From NCBI GenBank assembly GCA_903920435.1, contig CAIXMB010000098.1, positions 1 through 64,000 of the forward strand: a DNA stretch of 64,000 nt, written 5' to 3'. The position numbers and the translations under genes are program-made. Shown piece after piece: positions 29,266-35,229 of this stretch (positions are counted from its first letter, which is position 1; each line of letters begins with the position of its first letter). This DNA is from an uncultured Actinomycetes bacterium (lineage in GTDB: Bacteria; Actinomycetota; Actinomycetes; Actinomycetales; Microbacteriaceae). Under the pieces are notes generated by a model. The model did not search any database. It was not told the DNA's origin and saw only the letters and a program-made list of their open reading frames with translations.

Positions 29266-29961
29266 GTGCGTCTCGTCATTGCCCGCTGCTCCGTCGATTA
29301 CGCGGGCCGGCTCAGCGCGCACCTCCCGCTCGCCACGCGCCTGCTCCTGGTGAAGGCCGACGGCTCGGTGCTCGTGCACAGCGACTCGCTGAGCTACAAG
29401 CCGCTCAACTGGATGAGCCCGCCCTGCACCCTCACCGTCATGGAACCCGAACCCGAGCAGGCCAATGCCGGCGTCGTCGAACTCTGGCGCGTCGCCCAGG
29501 CGAAGACCGCCGACCTGCTCGTCATCTCGATCCACGAGATCGTGCACGACAGCGCGCACGAGCTCGGCGTCGACCCCGGCCTGCAGAAGGACGGCGTCGA
29601 GGCGCACCTGCAGAAACTCCTCGCCGAGCAGATCGAGCTCCTGGGCGACGGGCACCGGCTGGTACGGCGCGAGTACATGACCGCGATCGGCCCCGTCGAC
29701 ATCCTCGCCACGGATGCCACCGGCGCCAGCGTGGCCGTCGAGATCAAGCGGCGCGGCGACATCGACGGCGTCGAACAGCTCACTCGCTACCTCGAGCTCA
29801 TGAATCGTGACCCGCTGCTCGCCCCCGTGACCGGGGTGTTCGCGGCCCAGGAGATCAAACCGCAAGCACGCACCCTGGCCCAGGACCGCGGCATCCGGTG
29901 CCTGCTTCTGGACTACGACGCGATGCGCGGGCTCGACGACGCGGACTCGCGCCTGTTCTGA
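29266..29961 (+). CDS. nucS: endonuclease NucS (mismatch-specific)
   Basis: 231-residue nuclease of the non-canonical mismatch-repair pathway that replaces MutS/MutL in most actinobacteria; it is known to act with the sliding clamp. The N-terminal beta domain is followed by the RecB-like nuclease core: [16 protein letters not shown] with the first catalytic Asp, then [21 protein letters not shown] with the E-x-K pair. The C-terminus is DDADSRLF, a hydrophobic end that could contact the clamp. GTG start, no Shine-Dalgarno. Confidence 0.95.
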
Positions 29962-30420: not shown

Positions 30421-31074
30421 GTGCCACAGTTCAGCTGTATCCTGTTCGACCTCGATGGCACGATAGTCGACTCGGCCCCCGGTATCACGGCCACCCTCGC
30501 CTACACGTTCGAGCAGCTCCGCCTCCCTGTGCCGAGCCCCGCGGAACTCGTCGCCTACGTCGGCCCGCCCATCCTCGACTCGTTCCGCGATCTCGCGCGC
30601 TTCACCCCCGAGCAGTCCCAGCGCGCCCTCGAGATCTACCGCGTGCAGTACCTCAAGACCGGGGTGTTCGACGCGACCGTGTATCCGGGCGTCGCCGACG
30701 TGCTGAAGGCCATCCGCGCGCACGACGTGCCGCTCTCGCTCGCAACGTCGAAGCCCGAGACACCCGCGACGCTCATCCTCGAGCACTACGACCTGCTCAA
30801 GTACTTCGATGTCATCACCGGCGCCTCCGACGACGAGAAGCGCAGCGCGAAGGCCGACGTGGTCGAGGAGGCACTCAAGCGGCTCACGGAGCACGGCGCC
30901 GACATCTCGCGGCCCGTCATGGTCGGTGACCGGCACCACGACGTCGTCGGCGCGGCCGCGCACGAGGTGCCGACGATCTTCGTGCGGTGGGGCTACGGCG
31001 CGCCCGCCGAGGAGGTCGGCACGATCGGCGTGGTCGACTCCGCCGCCGAGCTGCAGCGGCTGCTACTGGGCTAG
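30421..31074 (+). CDS. HAD-superfamily phosphatase, Gph-like
   Basis: 217 residues. HAD motif I DLDGTIVDS (the first Asp is the nucleophile), motif II SLATSKPETPA, motif III lysine in KRSAKADVVEEAL and motif IV PVMVGDRHHDVVGA. The helical cap between motifs I and II matches phosphoglycolate-phosphatase-type enzymes; the true substrate (phosphoglycolate or another sugar phosphate) is not certain. GTG start without Shine-Dalgarno. Confidence 0.88.
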   Translation: MPQFSCILFDLDGTIVDSAPGITATLAYTFEQLRLPVPSPAELVAYVGPPILDSFRDLARFTPEQSQRALEIYRVQYLKTGVFDATVYPGVADVLKAIRAHDVPLSLATSKPETPATLILEHYDLLKYFDVITGASDDEKRSAKADVVEEALKRLTEHGADISRPVMVGDRHHDVVGAAAHEVPTIFVRWGYGAPAEEVGTIGVVDSAAELQRLLLG

Positions 31075-31076
31075 CG

Positions 31077-31283
31077 TCAGGCGGCGACCGGGCAGTGCAT
31101 CCGGGTCGCGTGGTGGTCCTGGCTGCGCTCGAAGGTGTGCCCGCTCATGGGCATGCCGCACAGCGGGCACGGCTTCTCAGCGACCGAGGGCAGCGGCGGT
31201 TCGTCGAACGGCCCGAGTTGTGCCGGGCCCAGGTAGGGGAAGAGCGCCTTGTTGAGGCGCTGCCACCACAGTAGTTTGCTCAC
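31077..31283 (-). CDS. small zinc-ribbon-like protein
   Basis: 68 residues from the GTG at 31283. The C-terminal half has CPLCGMPM, then HTFERSQDHHATRMHCP, a CxxC plus His/Cys arrangement able to bind zinc. The N-terminus (SKLLWWQRLNKALFPYLGP) is amphipathic. I recognise no family. TACTAT ends 6 nt before the start, and the promoter region overlaps that of the divergent OhrR-like gene, so both are probably controlled together. A longer start at 31298 would place the start inside the promoter. Confidence 0.7.
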   Translation of the reverse strand: MSKLLWWQRLNKALFPYLGPAQLGPFDEPPLPSVAEKPCPLCGMPMSGHTFERSQDHHATRMHCPVAA

Positions 31284-31289
31284 GAATAG

Positions 31290-31305
31290 ATAGTACACTA
31301 ACTAT
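31290..31305. promoter_or_regulatory. divergent promoter and candidate OhrR operator
   Basis: The inverted repeat ATAGT-6-ACTAT (31290-31305) covers both -10 boxes: TACACT (31294-31299), 6 nt before the regulator ATG, and TACTAT (31295-31290, minus strand), 6 nt before the small zinc-ribbon gene. A bound repressor would block both directions. Confidence 0.6.
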
Positions 31306-31734
31306 ATGACGGATGCCCTCGCCCTCGACCGCCAGGTCTGCTTCGCCCTCGCTGCCGCCTCCCGCAGCGTGATCGGCCTGTACCGCCCGGTGCTCGAGCC
31401 CCTGGGGCTCACGCATCCGCAGTACCTCGTCATGCTCGCCCTCTGGGAGCGCAGCCCGCGCACCGTGCGCAACATCGGCGAGGCGCTCTACCTCGAGCCC
31501 GCGACCCTCTCGCCGCTGCTCAAGCGCCTCGAGTCGGCCGGGCTCCTCACGCGCGCACGCAGCAGCACGGATGAACGCGCCCTCGATGTGGCACTCACCC
31601 CCGCCGGGGCTGCCCTGCGCACCGAGGCGGAGAAGGTGCCCGCGCAGATCGTCGCACGGCTCGGCATGCAGGTCTCGGAGCTGGAGGCGATCCGCGACGG
31701 TCTCACCCGGTTGCTCGCCGCCTCTAGCGCCTGA
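31306..31734 (+). CDS. MarR-family regulator, OhrR-like
   Basis: 142 residues. The N-terminus LDRQVCFALAAASRSVIGLY has the single reactive Cys (Cys12 here) at the place of the peroxide-sensing cysteine of OhrR, and GLTHPQYLVMLALWE is also characteristic. Winged helix: LYLEPATLSPLLKRLESAGLL, then STDERALDVALT. OhrR normally represses an ohr peroxidase gene, but none is adjacent; a small zinc-ribbon gene is divergent instead. Target therefore uncertain. Confidence 0.85.
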   Translation: MTDALALDRQVCFALAAASRSVIGLYRPVLEPLGLTHPQYLVMLALWERSPRTVRNIGEALYLEPATLSPLLKRLESAGLLTRARSSTDERALDVALTPAGAALRTEAEKVPAQIVARLGMQVSELEAIRDGLTRLLAASSA

Positions 31735-31752: not shown

Positions 31753-32634
31753 ATGGGCGCCATGGGATCAGCGTTGACCACCATCGGATTGCCCGTCGCC
31801 TTAGGCATCATCATGTTCGGCCTGGGCCTGAGCCTCACCCCCGCGGACTTCGCGCGGGTGGCGAAGCATCCCAAGGCGGTGATCATCGCCCTGGTGTGCC
31901 AGCTCGTGCTGCTGCCGGCCCTGTGCTTCGGGCTCGTGCTGCTCTTCCGCCTCCCGCCCGTGCTCGCGGTCGGCATGATGATCCTCGCCGCGTCGCCCGG
32001 CGGCACCACCGCGAACCTCTACAGCCACCTGTTCCGCGGTGACATCGCCCTCAACATCTCGCTCACGGCGATCAACTCCGTGATCTCCGTGGTCACGCTG
32101 CCGTTCATCGTCAACCTCTCGCTCGGGTACTTCTACCCCGCGGGCGGCCAGGTCGGCATCGATGTGGTCGAGGCCCTCAAGGTATTCGCGATCGTGCTCG
32201 TGCCCGTCGTGCTCGGCATGCTCGCCCGCCGCGCCAACCCCCGGTTTGCCGACCGCATGGACAAGCCCGTGCGCATCGCCTCGATCGTCATCCTCGTCAT
32301 CGTGATCGCCGGCGCCGTGGTCGCCAACCTCAAGCCCCTCATGGAGAACATCGGCGCGCTCGCTGGCATCACCGTGGTGTTCTGCCTCGCCTCGCTCACC
32401 CTGGGCTTCGTCATCCCGCGGCTGTTCCGCGTGAACCGCCCGCAGGCTGTGGCGAGCTCGTTCGAGATCGGCATTCACAACGCGACACTGGCGATCGTCA
32501 TCGCCCAATCGGTGCTCGGCAACTTCGAGATGTCGCTTCCGGGCGCCGTCTACGGGGTGCTGATGTTCTTCATCGCGGCCGCGTTCGGGCTCGTGCTCAC
32601 CCGGGTCGTGGGCCGCGCTCCGGCGCCGGCCTGA
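31753..32634 (+). CDS. bile acid:sodium symporter family transporter
   Basis: 293 residues with nine or ten hydrophobic helices. The family hallmarks are visible: GIIMFGLGLSLTPADF near the start, ILAASPGGTTANLYSHLFRGD in the crossover region, and FEIGIHNATLAIVIAQSVL near the end. Natural substrates in actinobacteria are generally organic anions; the actual one is unknown. The upstream ATG is annotated; the second ATG, three codons later, is equally possible. It lies 18 bp after the OhrR-like gene. Confidence 0.9.
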   Translation: MGAMGSALTTIGLPVALGIIMFGLGLSLTPADFARVAKHPKAVIIALVCQLVLLPALCFGLVLLFRLPPVLAVGMMILAASPGGTTANLYSHLFRGDIALNISLTAINSVISVVTLPFIVNLSLGYFYPAGGQVGIDVVEALKVFAIVLVPVVLGMLARRANPRFADRMDKPVRIASIVILVIVIAGAVVANLKPLMENIGALAGITVVFCLASLTLGFVIPRLFRVNRPQAVASSFEIGIHNATLAIVIAQSVLGNFEMSLPGAVYGVLMFFIAAAFGLVLTRVVGRAPAPA

Positions 32635-32661: not shown

Positions 32662-33678
32662 CTAGCGCGCGAGCCGCTCTACGACCGACCCGTACAGCCC
32701 GGGCAGCGCGCGCGACAGCGGCACGATCGCGCCCCGAGCCGGCGAGGTCGCCGCGAGCACGAGCCGCGAGGTGAGCATTCGGAAGTCGCGGGTCGTGCGG
32801 CGCCACTGACGGTCGTAGTCGCCAGTCCCGAGCGCGTGCGCGACGGCGAGCCGCGCCTGGTCGAACCCGAGCCGCAGCCCCTCGCCCGTGATCGCGTCCA
32901 CGTACCCTGAGGCATCGCCCACCAGCAGCACCCGCCCGCGCGAGGGCGCCACGGCCCGCTGCCGGAACGGGCCCGCTCCCTTGAGCTTCGTCGACGACTC
33001 ACCGAGGTGCGCGAGCGCCGGGATCCCGGCGACCGTCTCATCGAAGTCCGTGCGCGGTGCCCCGAGCAACGCCACCCCGACCAGGTCGGGCGCGAGCGGC
33101 GTGACGTACACCTCGGCGCGCGGCGCCCAGTGCACCTCGATGAGGTCGCTCCACGGCTCGACGGCGAAGTGCCTCGTGATGCCGAACCGGCGGCGGGCGC
33201 GCGGCGCTCCGCGATCGAGGCCCGCGAGCCGTCGCACAGTCGAGTGCAGCCCGTCGGCCCCGAAGAGCCACGAGCCACGGATGCCCGCGGCAACGACCCC
33301 GTCGGCATCCGTCTCGACGCTCTCGACCCGGGCGTCCACCCGCTCCACACCGAGCTCGGCAGCGCGCGCCGCCAGCGCGGAGTGCAGCACGGTCCGGCGC
33401 ACGCCGCGCCCGATGCCCGTCGCGAACACGTGATCCGCCCGGCGCCCGCGCGCGTTGTAGCTGACCCCGCGCAACGGCATGCCCGCGGGGTCGACGCCGA
33501 GGCGCGCGAGCAGCGGCAGCGCCCCGGGCATGAGGCCCTCGCCGCACGCTTTGTCGATGACTCCCTCGCGCGGTTCGACGAGCGCGACCGTCAGGCCGGC
33601 AAGCCGCGCCTCGATGGCCGACGCGAGCCCCACCGGCCCGCCACCCGCCACGATGACGTCGACGTCAGCCGAGCTCAC
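32662..33678 (-). CDS. FAD-dependent oxidoreductase, SrsC-like
   Basis: 338 residues. FAD-binding VIVAGGGPVGLASAIEARLAG at the N-terminus, the second motif GSWLFGADGLHSTVRRLAG, and the GD motif VLLVGDASGYVDAITGEG are typical of p-hydroxybenzoate-hydroxylase/geranylgeranyl-reductase-type flavoproteins. It is the third gene after a type III polyketide synthase and a methyltransferase, the srsABC order in which SrsC hydroxylates alkylresorcinols toward quinones (known from Streptomyces). GTG start, 14-bp overlap with the methyltransferase gene. Confidence 0.88.
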   Translation of the reverse strand: MSSADVDVIVAGGGPVGLASAIEARLAGLTVALVEPREGVIDKACGEGLMPGALPLLARLGVDPAGMPLRGVSYNARGRRADHVFATGIGRGVRRTVLHSALAARAAELGVERVDARVESVETDADGVVAAGIRGSWLFGADGLHSTVRRLAGLDRGAPRARRRFGITRHFAVEPWSDLIEVHWAPRAEVYVTPLAPDLVGVALLGAPRTDFDETVAGIPALAHLGESSTKLKGAGPFRQRAVAPSRGRVLLVGDASGYVDAITGEGLRLGFDQARLAVAHALGTGDYDRQWRRTTRDFRMLTSRLVLAATSPARGAIVPLSRALPGLYGSVVERLAR

Positions 33679-34186
33679 GCAGCGCCCGATCCTCGGTGGG
33701 GATGCGGAAGCCCAGCAGCAGCACGGCGTTCAGCACCGTGAAGGCGATGGCGGTGACCCACGCGGTGTGCACGAGCGGCAGGGCGACGCCCTCGATCGCG
33801 ACGATCACGTAGTTGGAGTGCCGCAGGAACCGGTACAGGCCGCGCGCCGTCACCCGCCCGGCACCGGGGACGACGATGACCCGCGTGTTCCACTGCGGGC
33901 CGAGCGAGCTGATCACCGAGTAGCGACCGACCTGGCACAGCAGCGCGATCACGAGCATGGGCCAGCCGAGCCACGGGATGAACGGCCGCGCGGCGAACAC
34001 GACCTCCGCGATGCACGCGAGCAGGAGCCCGGTGTGCAGCACGACCATGAACGGGAAGTGCCGCAGCCCGTACTCCTTGCCGCCGCGGGCCATCGCCGCT
34101 GCCGCATTGCGCTTCGAGATGACGAGCTCGACGATGCGCTCCCCGCCCGTGAGCAGGATGAAGATCACGTAGAGAACGACGCTCAC
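33665..34186 (-). CDS. isoprenylcysteine-carboxyl-methyltransferase-family enzyme, SrsB-like
   Basis: 173-residue membrane methyltransferase with four or five helices from the GTG at 34186, overlapping the synthase stop as GTGA. The C-terminal PGAGRVTARGLYRFLRHSNY followed by VIVAIEGVALP is the cofactor-binding region of the ICMT/phospholipid-methyltransferase family. In the comparable Streptomyces srs operon this enzyme O-methylates alkylresorcinol. Here the role is inferred from position. The extended open frame upstream is a shadow. Confidence 0.88.
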   Translation of the reverse strand: MSVVLYVIFILLTGGERIVELVISKRNAAAAMARGGKEYGLRHFPFMVVLHTGLLLACIAEVVFAARPFIPWLGWPMLVIALLCQVGRYSVISSLGPQWNTRVIVVPGAGRVTARGLYRFLRHSNYVIVAIEGVALPLVHTAWVTAIAFTVLNAVLLLGFRIPTEDRALRELG

Positions 34187-35229
34187 GGCCACTCCAGGAG
34201 CACGAACTCGGCGCTCACCCCGGGGCCGAGCGCGAACAGCAGTCCGCGCGCGCCTGCCGGCTGCTGCCACATGTCGGCCAGCACGTGCAGCACGGCCGCG
34301 GAGGAGAGGTTGCCCACGCGATCCAGCGTCGCCCACGACGTGCGGAACGCCTCTGCGGGAACGTCGAGCGAGTGCGCGAACGCGTCGAGCACGCGCGGCC
34401 CGCCCGGGTGGGCGACCCAGGCCGTGACATCCGTGGTCTGCAGTCCGTGCTCGCCGAGGAACGCGGCGACCTCCGACGGGAAGTGCCGCTCGATCACATC
34501 GGCGACCCCCGCCGTGAGCACGATCTCGAAACCGGTGCCGCCCACGTGCCAGCCGATCACATCGGTGGTGTCGGGGTAGAAGCCCGAGCGGGTGTCGACG
34601 ATACGGATGCCCGGCTCCTGCCGGTCGTCGCCCACGAGCACGACGGCCGCAGCCCCGTCGCCGAAGAGCCCGGTCGCGACGAAGTTGGCGATCGTCTCGT
34701 CGTCGCGCTGGAGGGTGAGCGAGCACAGCTCGACGCTCAGCAGCACTCCGACCTCGTCCGGATGCCCGGCCAGGTAGTCGTTGACGCGCGCGATGCCCGA
34801 CGCTCCCGCGACGCACCCCAGGCCGAACGACGGCATGCGCTTCACGTCCGGGCGCAGCCCGAGGCGGGAGACCAGGAGCGCGTCGATCGACGGCGCCGCG
34901 ATTCCGGTCACCGAGGTGAACATCACGAAGTCGACGTCCGGCGGCTCGAGGCCCGCGTCGGCGAGCGCCGTGCGCAGTGCGCGCTCGGCGAGATCGGTGG
35001 CAACCTCGATGAAGATGTCGTTGGACTCCCGGAACGTGCCGAGGTCGCGGTAGCGCTCGATCGGCAGCGCGGTGTGCCGCGTGCCGATGCCGCTCGCGGC
35101 GTGCATCCGTTCGAGAACGGCGCGCTTGCCGGGCACCGACGAGATCAACGGGGCGAGCTCATGCGTGATCTGCGCCTGGGTGTAGACGTGCTCGGGGAGC
35201 ACGGGCGCCACCGCCACTATTCGGGACAT
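34183..35229 (-). CDS. type III polyketide synthase, SrsA-like
   Basis: 348 residues of the chalcone/stilbene-synthase superfamily. Catalytic triad Cys139 (FGLGCVAGASGI), His274 (WVAHPGGPRV) and Asn307 (RVGNLSSAAVL), all present; C-terminal GPGVSAEFVLLEW. Extends a starter acyl chain with malonyl-CoA. With the ICMT-like and flavin genes that follow, alkylresorcinol or related phenolic lipid synthesis is the best inference. TACCGT ends 6 nt before the ATG. Confidence 0.93.
   Translation of the reverse strand: MSRIVAVAPVLPEHVYTQAQITHELAPLISSVPGKRAVLERMHAASGIGTRHTALPIERYRDLGTFRESNDIFIEVATDLAERALRTALADAGLEPPDVDFVMFTSVTGIAAPSIDALLVSRLGLRPDVKRMPSFGLGCVAGASGIARVNDYLAGHPDEVGVLLSVELCSLTLQRDDETIANFVATGLFGDGAAAVVLVGDDRQEPGIRIVDTRSGFYPDTTDVIGWHVGGTGFEIVLTAGVADVIERHFPSEVAAFLGEHGLQTTDVTAWVAHPGGPRVLDAFAHSLDVPAEAFRTSWATLDRVGNLSSAAVLHVLADMWQQPAGARGLLFALGPGVSAEFVLLEWP

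Follow-up and report, generated by a model that had tools for sequence, protein, structure and literature searches.

A conserved pair of a His-type OhrR-like regulator and a small zinc-knuckle-type protein as a putative redox switch in Microbacteriaceae

OhrR is the textbook sensor of organic peroxides, and its target is a peroxidase induced in response. One locus in a 64,000-nucleotide stretch of DNA from an uncultured Actinomycetes bacterium (hereafter the window, meaning this stretch at its full length) raises the question of what an OhrR-like sensor might control when no ohr gene is found beside it. The original prediction, made from the sequence of the window, described an OhrR-like sensor with a conserved cysteine, a divergent 68-residue CxxC/H/C protein in place of the usual peroxidase and a single inverted repeat under both ‒10 boxes, and proposed that the zinc-ribbon protein could be a new member of a peroxide response. 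We analysed the pair and its repeat in the genome of origin and in genomes of the same family, which we take to be Microbacteriaceae.

Layout of the locus

All three described features were recovered (Table 1). The regulator is an OhrR-type MarR protein, of which Cys12 aligns with Cys15, the N-terminal reactive cysteine of Bacillus subtilis OhrR. The divergent ORF carries the pattern C39xxC42-H49-C64, and both candidate ‒10 hexamers lie within the 12-bp palindrome of the repeat. Leaderless starts are plausible for the regulator and the small gene, because each candidate ‒10 hexamer is located 6 nt from a start codon.

Table 1. Features of the regulator–small gene locus and its neighbours (positions in the window)
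Feature	Position	Strand	Remarks
OhrR-like MarR regulator, His-type subfamily, 142 aa	31306..31734	+	Cys12; LTHPQY, versus LTYPQY in canonical OhrR
Small CxxC-H-C (zinc-knuckle-type) protein, 68 aa	31283..31077	-	GTG start 31283; stop 31077-31079
Operator core ATAGTACACTAA, 12-bp palindrome (consensus TTAGTRYACTAA)	31290..31301		Overlaps both candidate ‒10 hexamers
Inverted repeat ATAGT-N6-ACTAT, 16 bp	31290..31305		Contains conserved core ATAGTACACTAA
Candidate ‒10 TACACT, regulator gene	31294..31299	+	6 nt 5' of ATG 31306; predicted from sequence
Candidate ‒10 TACTAT, small gene	31295..31290	-	6 nt 5' of GTG 31283; predicted from sequence
HAD (phosphoglycolate-phosphatase-like) hydrolase	30421..31074	+	Convergent with small gene; context, not core
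BASS-family transporter	31753..32634	+	18 bp 3' of regulator; not core

Most close relatives also have the HAD gene next to the small gene, while the BASS transporter gene is present at the pair in only some of them. Neither was retained as an essential part of the system, the transporter gene being found in some relatives only, and the HAD gene, for all its conservation, being convergent and having no operator. Further upstream, shortly before the HAD gene, a NucS endonuclease gene (Pfam NucS_N and NucS_C) is located at 29272-29961, and a similar NucS/HAD order was visible at another locus, where the small gene was found without an adjacent regulator. On the minus strand at 32662-35229 there is a possible small biosynthetic cluster, including an FAD geranylgeranyl-reductase-type protein and, as judged by eye, an isoprenylcysteine-methyltransferase-like ORF and a type III polyketide synthase-like ORF.

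Conservation of the pair and of its operator

The small-protein family was present in 204 of the 300 family genomes, representing 61 of 85 genera, and the regulator was found at 29 of the 30 best small-protein loci. A second count started from the regulator and is independent of the small protein: of the 150 best regulator matches, 111 had a listed small gene no more than 600 bp away, in divergent orientation in 106 of the 111. Most of the other 39 loci were fetched, and about 30 also proved to be paired on inspection, which brings the paired regulators to about 141 of these 150 within the family; two of the remaining unpaired regulators are second paralogues. By a tally made by eye, the pair spans about 50 genera, and four further families of the class also contain it. 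MAGs of Rhodoglobus, Leifsonia and Salinibacterium are the nearest relatives that carry a name; Rhodoglobus is a member of Microbacteriaceae, hence our reading of the family. Within the genus of the window itself the distribution is patchy, with a close match to both genes in one of five other sampled genomes. The refuting outcome named in the original prediction, a pair not conserved in relatives, is decisively contradicted: together with the operator, the pair is kept across the family and beyond.

Based on alignment of 90 loci, the operator consensus is wTnnTTAGTRYACTAAnnAw, with the core TTAGTRYACTAA. The operator of the window, ATAGTACACTAA, has one mismatch to this core and was the only credible site when the genome of 3.16 Mb was searched, as the original prediction had proposed to do. 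The only other pattern match in this genome (C193:1059) was discarded, since it has one mismatch and lacks the RY centre. Across the family, the exact core was detected in 56 of 200 genomes, always as one copy per genome. Fifty-two of these 56 copies are located at the genes of the pair (48 by position lists near the small or regulator gene, two more at pairs and another two on fetching), and the other four have neither gene nearby. A regulon with many sites was rejected, because the genome of the window and those of its relatives have one site each. Being the only credible site in the genome and conserved across the family, the repeat at 31290-31305 is, as we judge from these comparisons, not a chance occurrence.

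An operator with no more than one mismatch was found upstream of 90 of 113 small genes located beside the regulator, versus 3 of 40 small genes not beside it (Fisher p about 3e-16 with loci treated as independent, a value that overstates the significance as the loci are related and include a few duplicates). These three exceptions match a genus in which the two genes have become separated. In this genus (four genomes), the two genes are no longer linked, but each is still preceded by the operator or a close copy of it. In tandem and convergent rearrangements, the operator stays ahead of the small gene, and small-protein paralogues without the regulator are also without the operator. These natural experiments are the strongest evidence for control of the small gene by the regulator, which is well supported by the retention of the operator before both separated genes and before the rearranged small gene, and by its absence from the regulator-less paralogues.

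The regulator and its small partners

The regulator matched the Pfam MarR model (1e-13), indicating membership of the MarR winged-helix family, and the NCBIfam OhrR model at E=1.4e-41, with a score below the cut-off of the model. Its best structure matches were OhrR structures, namely those of B. subtilis (1Z91/1Z9C) and Xanthomonas campestris (2PEX/2PFB). In an alignment of 113 paired regulators, the sensor cysteine was kept in all 113, the QxC context around it was invariant and the equivalent of Tyr29 (B. subtilis numbering) was likewise kept in 113 of 113; this cysteine is usually the only one in the protein. The Tyr29/Tyr40 pocket of OhrR was not found, as the Tyr40 position is occupied by His in all 113 sequences, and the Tyr19 position by Ala, Val or Ser. 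Tyr is present at position 40 in the OhrRs of B. subtilis and X. campestris and in a second OhrR of the same genome. In B. subtilis OhrR, Tyr40 contacts the sensor cysteine. Because this residue is replaced by His in every paired regulator, these proteins may respond to something other than an organic hydroperoxide.

His-type and Tyr-type sequences were separated on a FastTree tree with a support of 0.999, taken from the tree before rerooting (the value of 0.152 on a rerooted tree is a rerooting artefact). The two types also differ in gene neighbourhood. Among 151 distinct loci with a His-type regulator, the small gene was present at 130 and an OsmC/Ohr gene was nearby at none, while among 45 loci with a Tyr-type regulator the counts were none and 39, respectively; the His-type set was enriched for small-gene loci through fetching, which does not explain the absence of OsmC/Ohr. 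His-type regulators accordingly lack the linked Ohr/OsmC peroxidase target of OhrR, and the OhrRs that lie beside an Ohr/OsmC gene in large-genome relatives are Tyr-type. Assignment of the regulator to a separate subfamily, rather than to ordinary OhrR minus ohr, is well supported by these comparisons.

The original prediction had also stated that ohr is missing. This was correct for the locus and, in the strict sense, for the genome, in which no protein passed the cut-off of the Ohr model (TIGR03561) in a genome-wide search. The same genome encodes three OsmC-family proteins, of which two exceed the cut-off of the OsmC model (TIGR03562). A second OhrR with the canonical TYPQY motif is located directly upstream of an OsmC peroxiredoxin gene, at a distance of about 20 bp (contig C132:28917-29775), where it is truncated by the contig end. 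A canonical OhrR–OsmC module therefore exists elsewhere in this genome.

The small protein is composed of an N-terminal helix, a GPAQLGP motif and a CPLCG...H...HCP region. C39, C42, H49 and C64 were invariant in 27 sequences; among 72 sequences, C39, C42 and H49 were invariant and C64 was kept in at least 90%. Four conserved Cys/His ligands, as in a zinc ribbon or knuckle protein, are therefore present, and from this CxxC-H-C pattern the small protein quite probably binds zinc. No family for it was found in Pfam or NCBIfam. An AF2 model of moderate confidence (pLDDT 83.8, pTM 0.43) places a helix at residues 5-18 and surrounds the ligands with small beta elements, and Foldseek gave no match to PDB folds at E<=0.001. 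Sequence matches to zinc knuckles were weak, the best (E 7e-4) resting on two CPxCG stretches. A Lar-type match (E 0.099) and a match to the N-terminal domain of ClpG/ClpK (8P66, E 0.38, with no significant fold match) were rejected as noise. Paralogues of the small family without OhrR or operator were observed at two loci in or beside a dihydroxyacetone-kinase-like (dhaK/L/M) cluster; paralogues near dhaK/L/M often adjoin an SDR gene, and similar neighbours were seen at five further loci.

In other families within this class, different tiny proteins lie opposite the His-type regulator and an operator of the same kind. These include Cys-free proteins of 60-95 aa that share only the helix-GPAQL part with the small protein (three loci; this likeness is weak, a test on four sequences giving HMM E-values of 6e-6, 1e-3 and 0.03), single-TM-like proteins of 57-62 aa with an HGPAKW motif (three loci) and a DUF5313 membrane protein (one locus). 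This exchange of partners indicates that the stable core of the system is the regulator with its operator, and that the partner varies. Since Cys-free proteins are among the partners outside the family, an output based on zinc cannot be common to all of these systems.

A candidate one-target switch and its relation to known systems

Comparative genomics supports the pairing, the operator, its retention after separation of the genes and the distinct subfamily. We consider a one-target redox switch likely, in which the His-type OhrR would repress itself and a small zinc-knuckle-type effector until Cys12 is oxidized. In this mechanism, a dimer of the regulator would bind TTAGTRYACTAA between the divergent genes, covering both ‒10 boxes, and would thereby repress, rather than activate, its own gene and the small gene. 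Oxidation or S-thiolation of Cys12 would release the DNA and induce both genes; in an actinobacterium, the chemistry would most likely proceed through sulfenic acid to a mycothiol mixed disulfide. The CxxC-H-C site of the induced protein is predicted to hold zinc, and its amphipathic, Trp-rich N-terminal helix together with GPAQLGP might, as a guess, dock it on a partner or a membrane. That the induced protein acts as the effector is likewise a guess.

Three other explanations were considered. That the regulator is an ordinary OhrR which has merely lost its ohr neighbour, next to an unrelated or spurious ORF, agrees with the local absence of ohr and the small size of the ORF. This explanation is highly improbable, being contradicted by the conserved pair: the small family is widespread with invariant ligands, adjacency and operator are conserved, the latter even where the genes are separated, and the regulator belongs to a distinct subfamily. 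Another explanation leaves the circuit unchanged and replaces the signal, by another thiol-reactive compound (hypochlorite, a quinone or another electrophile) or by a ligand. The invariant His and the Ala/Val/Ser substitutions in the pocket, the separate clade that never lies beside ohr or osmC and the Tyr-type OhrR–OsmC pair already present in the same genome all point in this direction; the invariant Cys15 and Tyr29 equivalents with the QxC context, and true OhrRs as the closest solved relatives, point the other way. We regard a different signal as possible but somewhat doubtful, and organic peroxide as perhaps the inducer, with the chances evenly divided.

The small protein could also act back on the regulator, as an anti-regulator or redox partner in a feedback loop, instead of being a stress effector. 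The almost exclusive one-to-one pairing and the single operator per genome are consistent with feedback. Regulator-less small paralogues persist elsewhere, however, as in the dihydroxyacetone-kinase-like cluster, and the regulator stays while its partner changes in other families, so feedback appears rather unlikely. The original prediction thus stands in part: control of the CxxC/H/C protein by its OhrR-type neighbour is well supported by the conserved pair and operator. The regulator itself is assigned to a separate subfamily and not to ordinary OhrR.

The pair points to an undescribed oxidative-stress output under a sister subfamily of OhrR. This subfamily has an operator of its own, a changed sensing pocket and, in each genome, a single tiny target dedicated to it. 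What is gained by inducing a 68-residue zinc-type protein, or a tiny membrane protein, under presumed thiol oxidation is the question that this subfamily raises. Its extent may be wider: it is an even call whether a class-wide actinobacterial OhrR-type thiol-switch subfamily (His-type, operator TTAGTRYACTAA) exists that usually controls one tiny partner and not peroxidases. That partner would be the CxxC-H-C zinc microprotein for Microbacteriaceae as well as for some other families, and elsewhere its place would be taken by further small proteins, some of them membrane-spanning. If so, this class-wide His-type subfamily would represent a second kind of OhrR response, whose output is not an enzyme. 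In the literature searched, we found no paper on an OhrR-linked small zinc protein, and none with the operator TTAGTRYACTAA in a matching context.

Compared with the OhrRs of B. subtilis and X. campestris, the regulator has full-length homology, the N-terminal sensor cysteine and the Tyr29 equivalent in common, and differs in the residues at the Tyr40 and Tyr19 positions, the usually single Cys and the lack of an ohr target. The small protein shares the CPxCG knuckle with zinc-ribbon and knuckle domains, such as those of ClpG/ClpK and the rubredoxin type, with weak sequence similarity. The OhrR–ohr system of Streptomyces avermitilis (PMC6034001) is likewise actinobacterial, with a divergent regulator and target and a shared promoter operator, but its target is a peroxidase and its operator is different. 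Published OhrR boxes are TACAATTNAATTGTA or ACAATTNAATTGT (PMC6034001), from which TTAGTRYACTAA differs; the operator here is not of the ACAATTNAATTGT type. A further parallel is OspR–gpx of Pseudomonas aeruginosa (PMC4999210), where an OhrR homologue is dedicated to a non-ohr target in a genome that also encodes OhrR–ohr. The target of OspR is a glutathione peroxidase, whereas that of the regulator described here would be a tiny zinc-knuckle-type protein.
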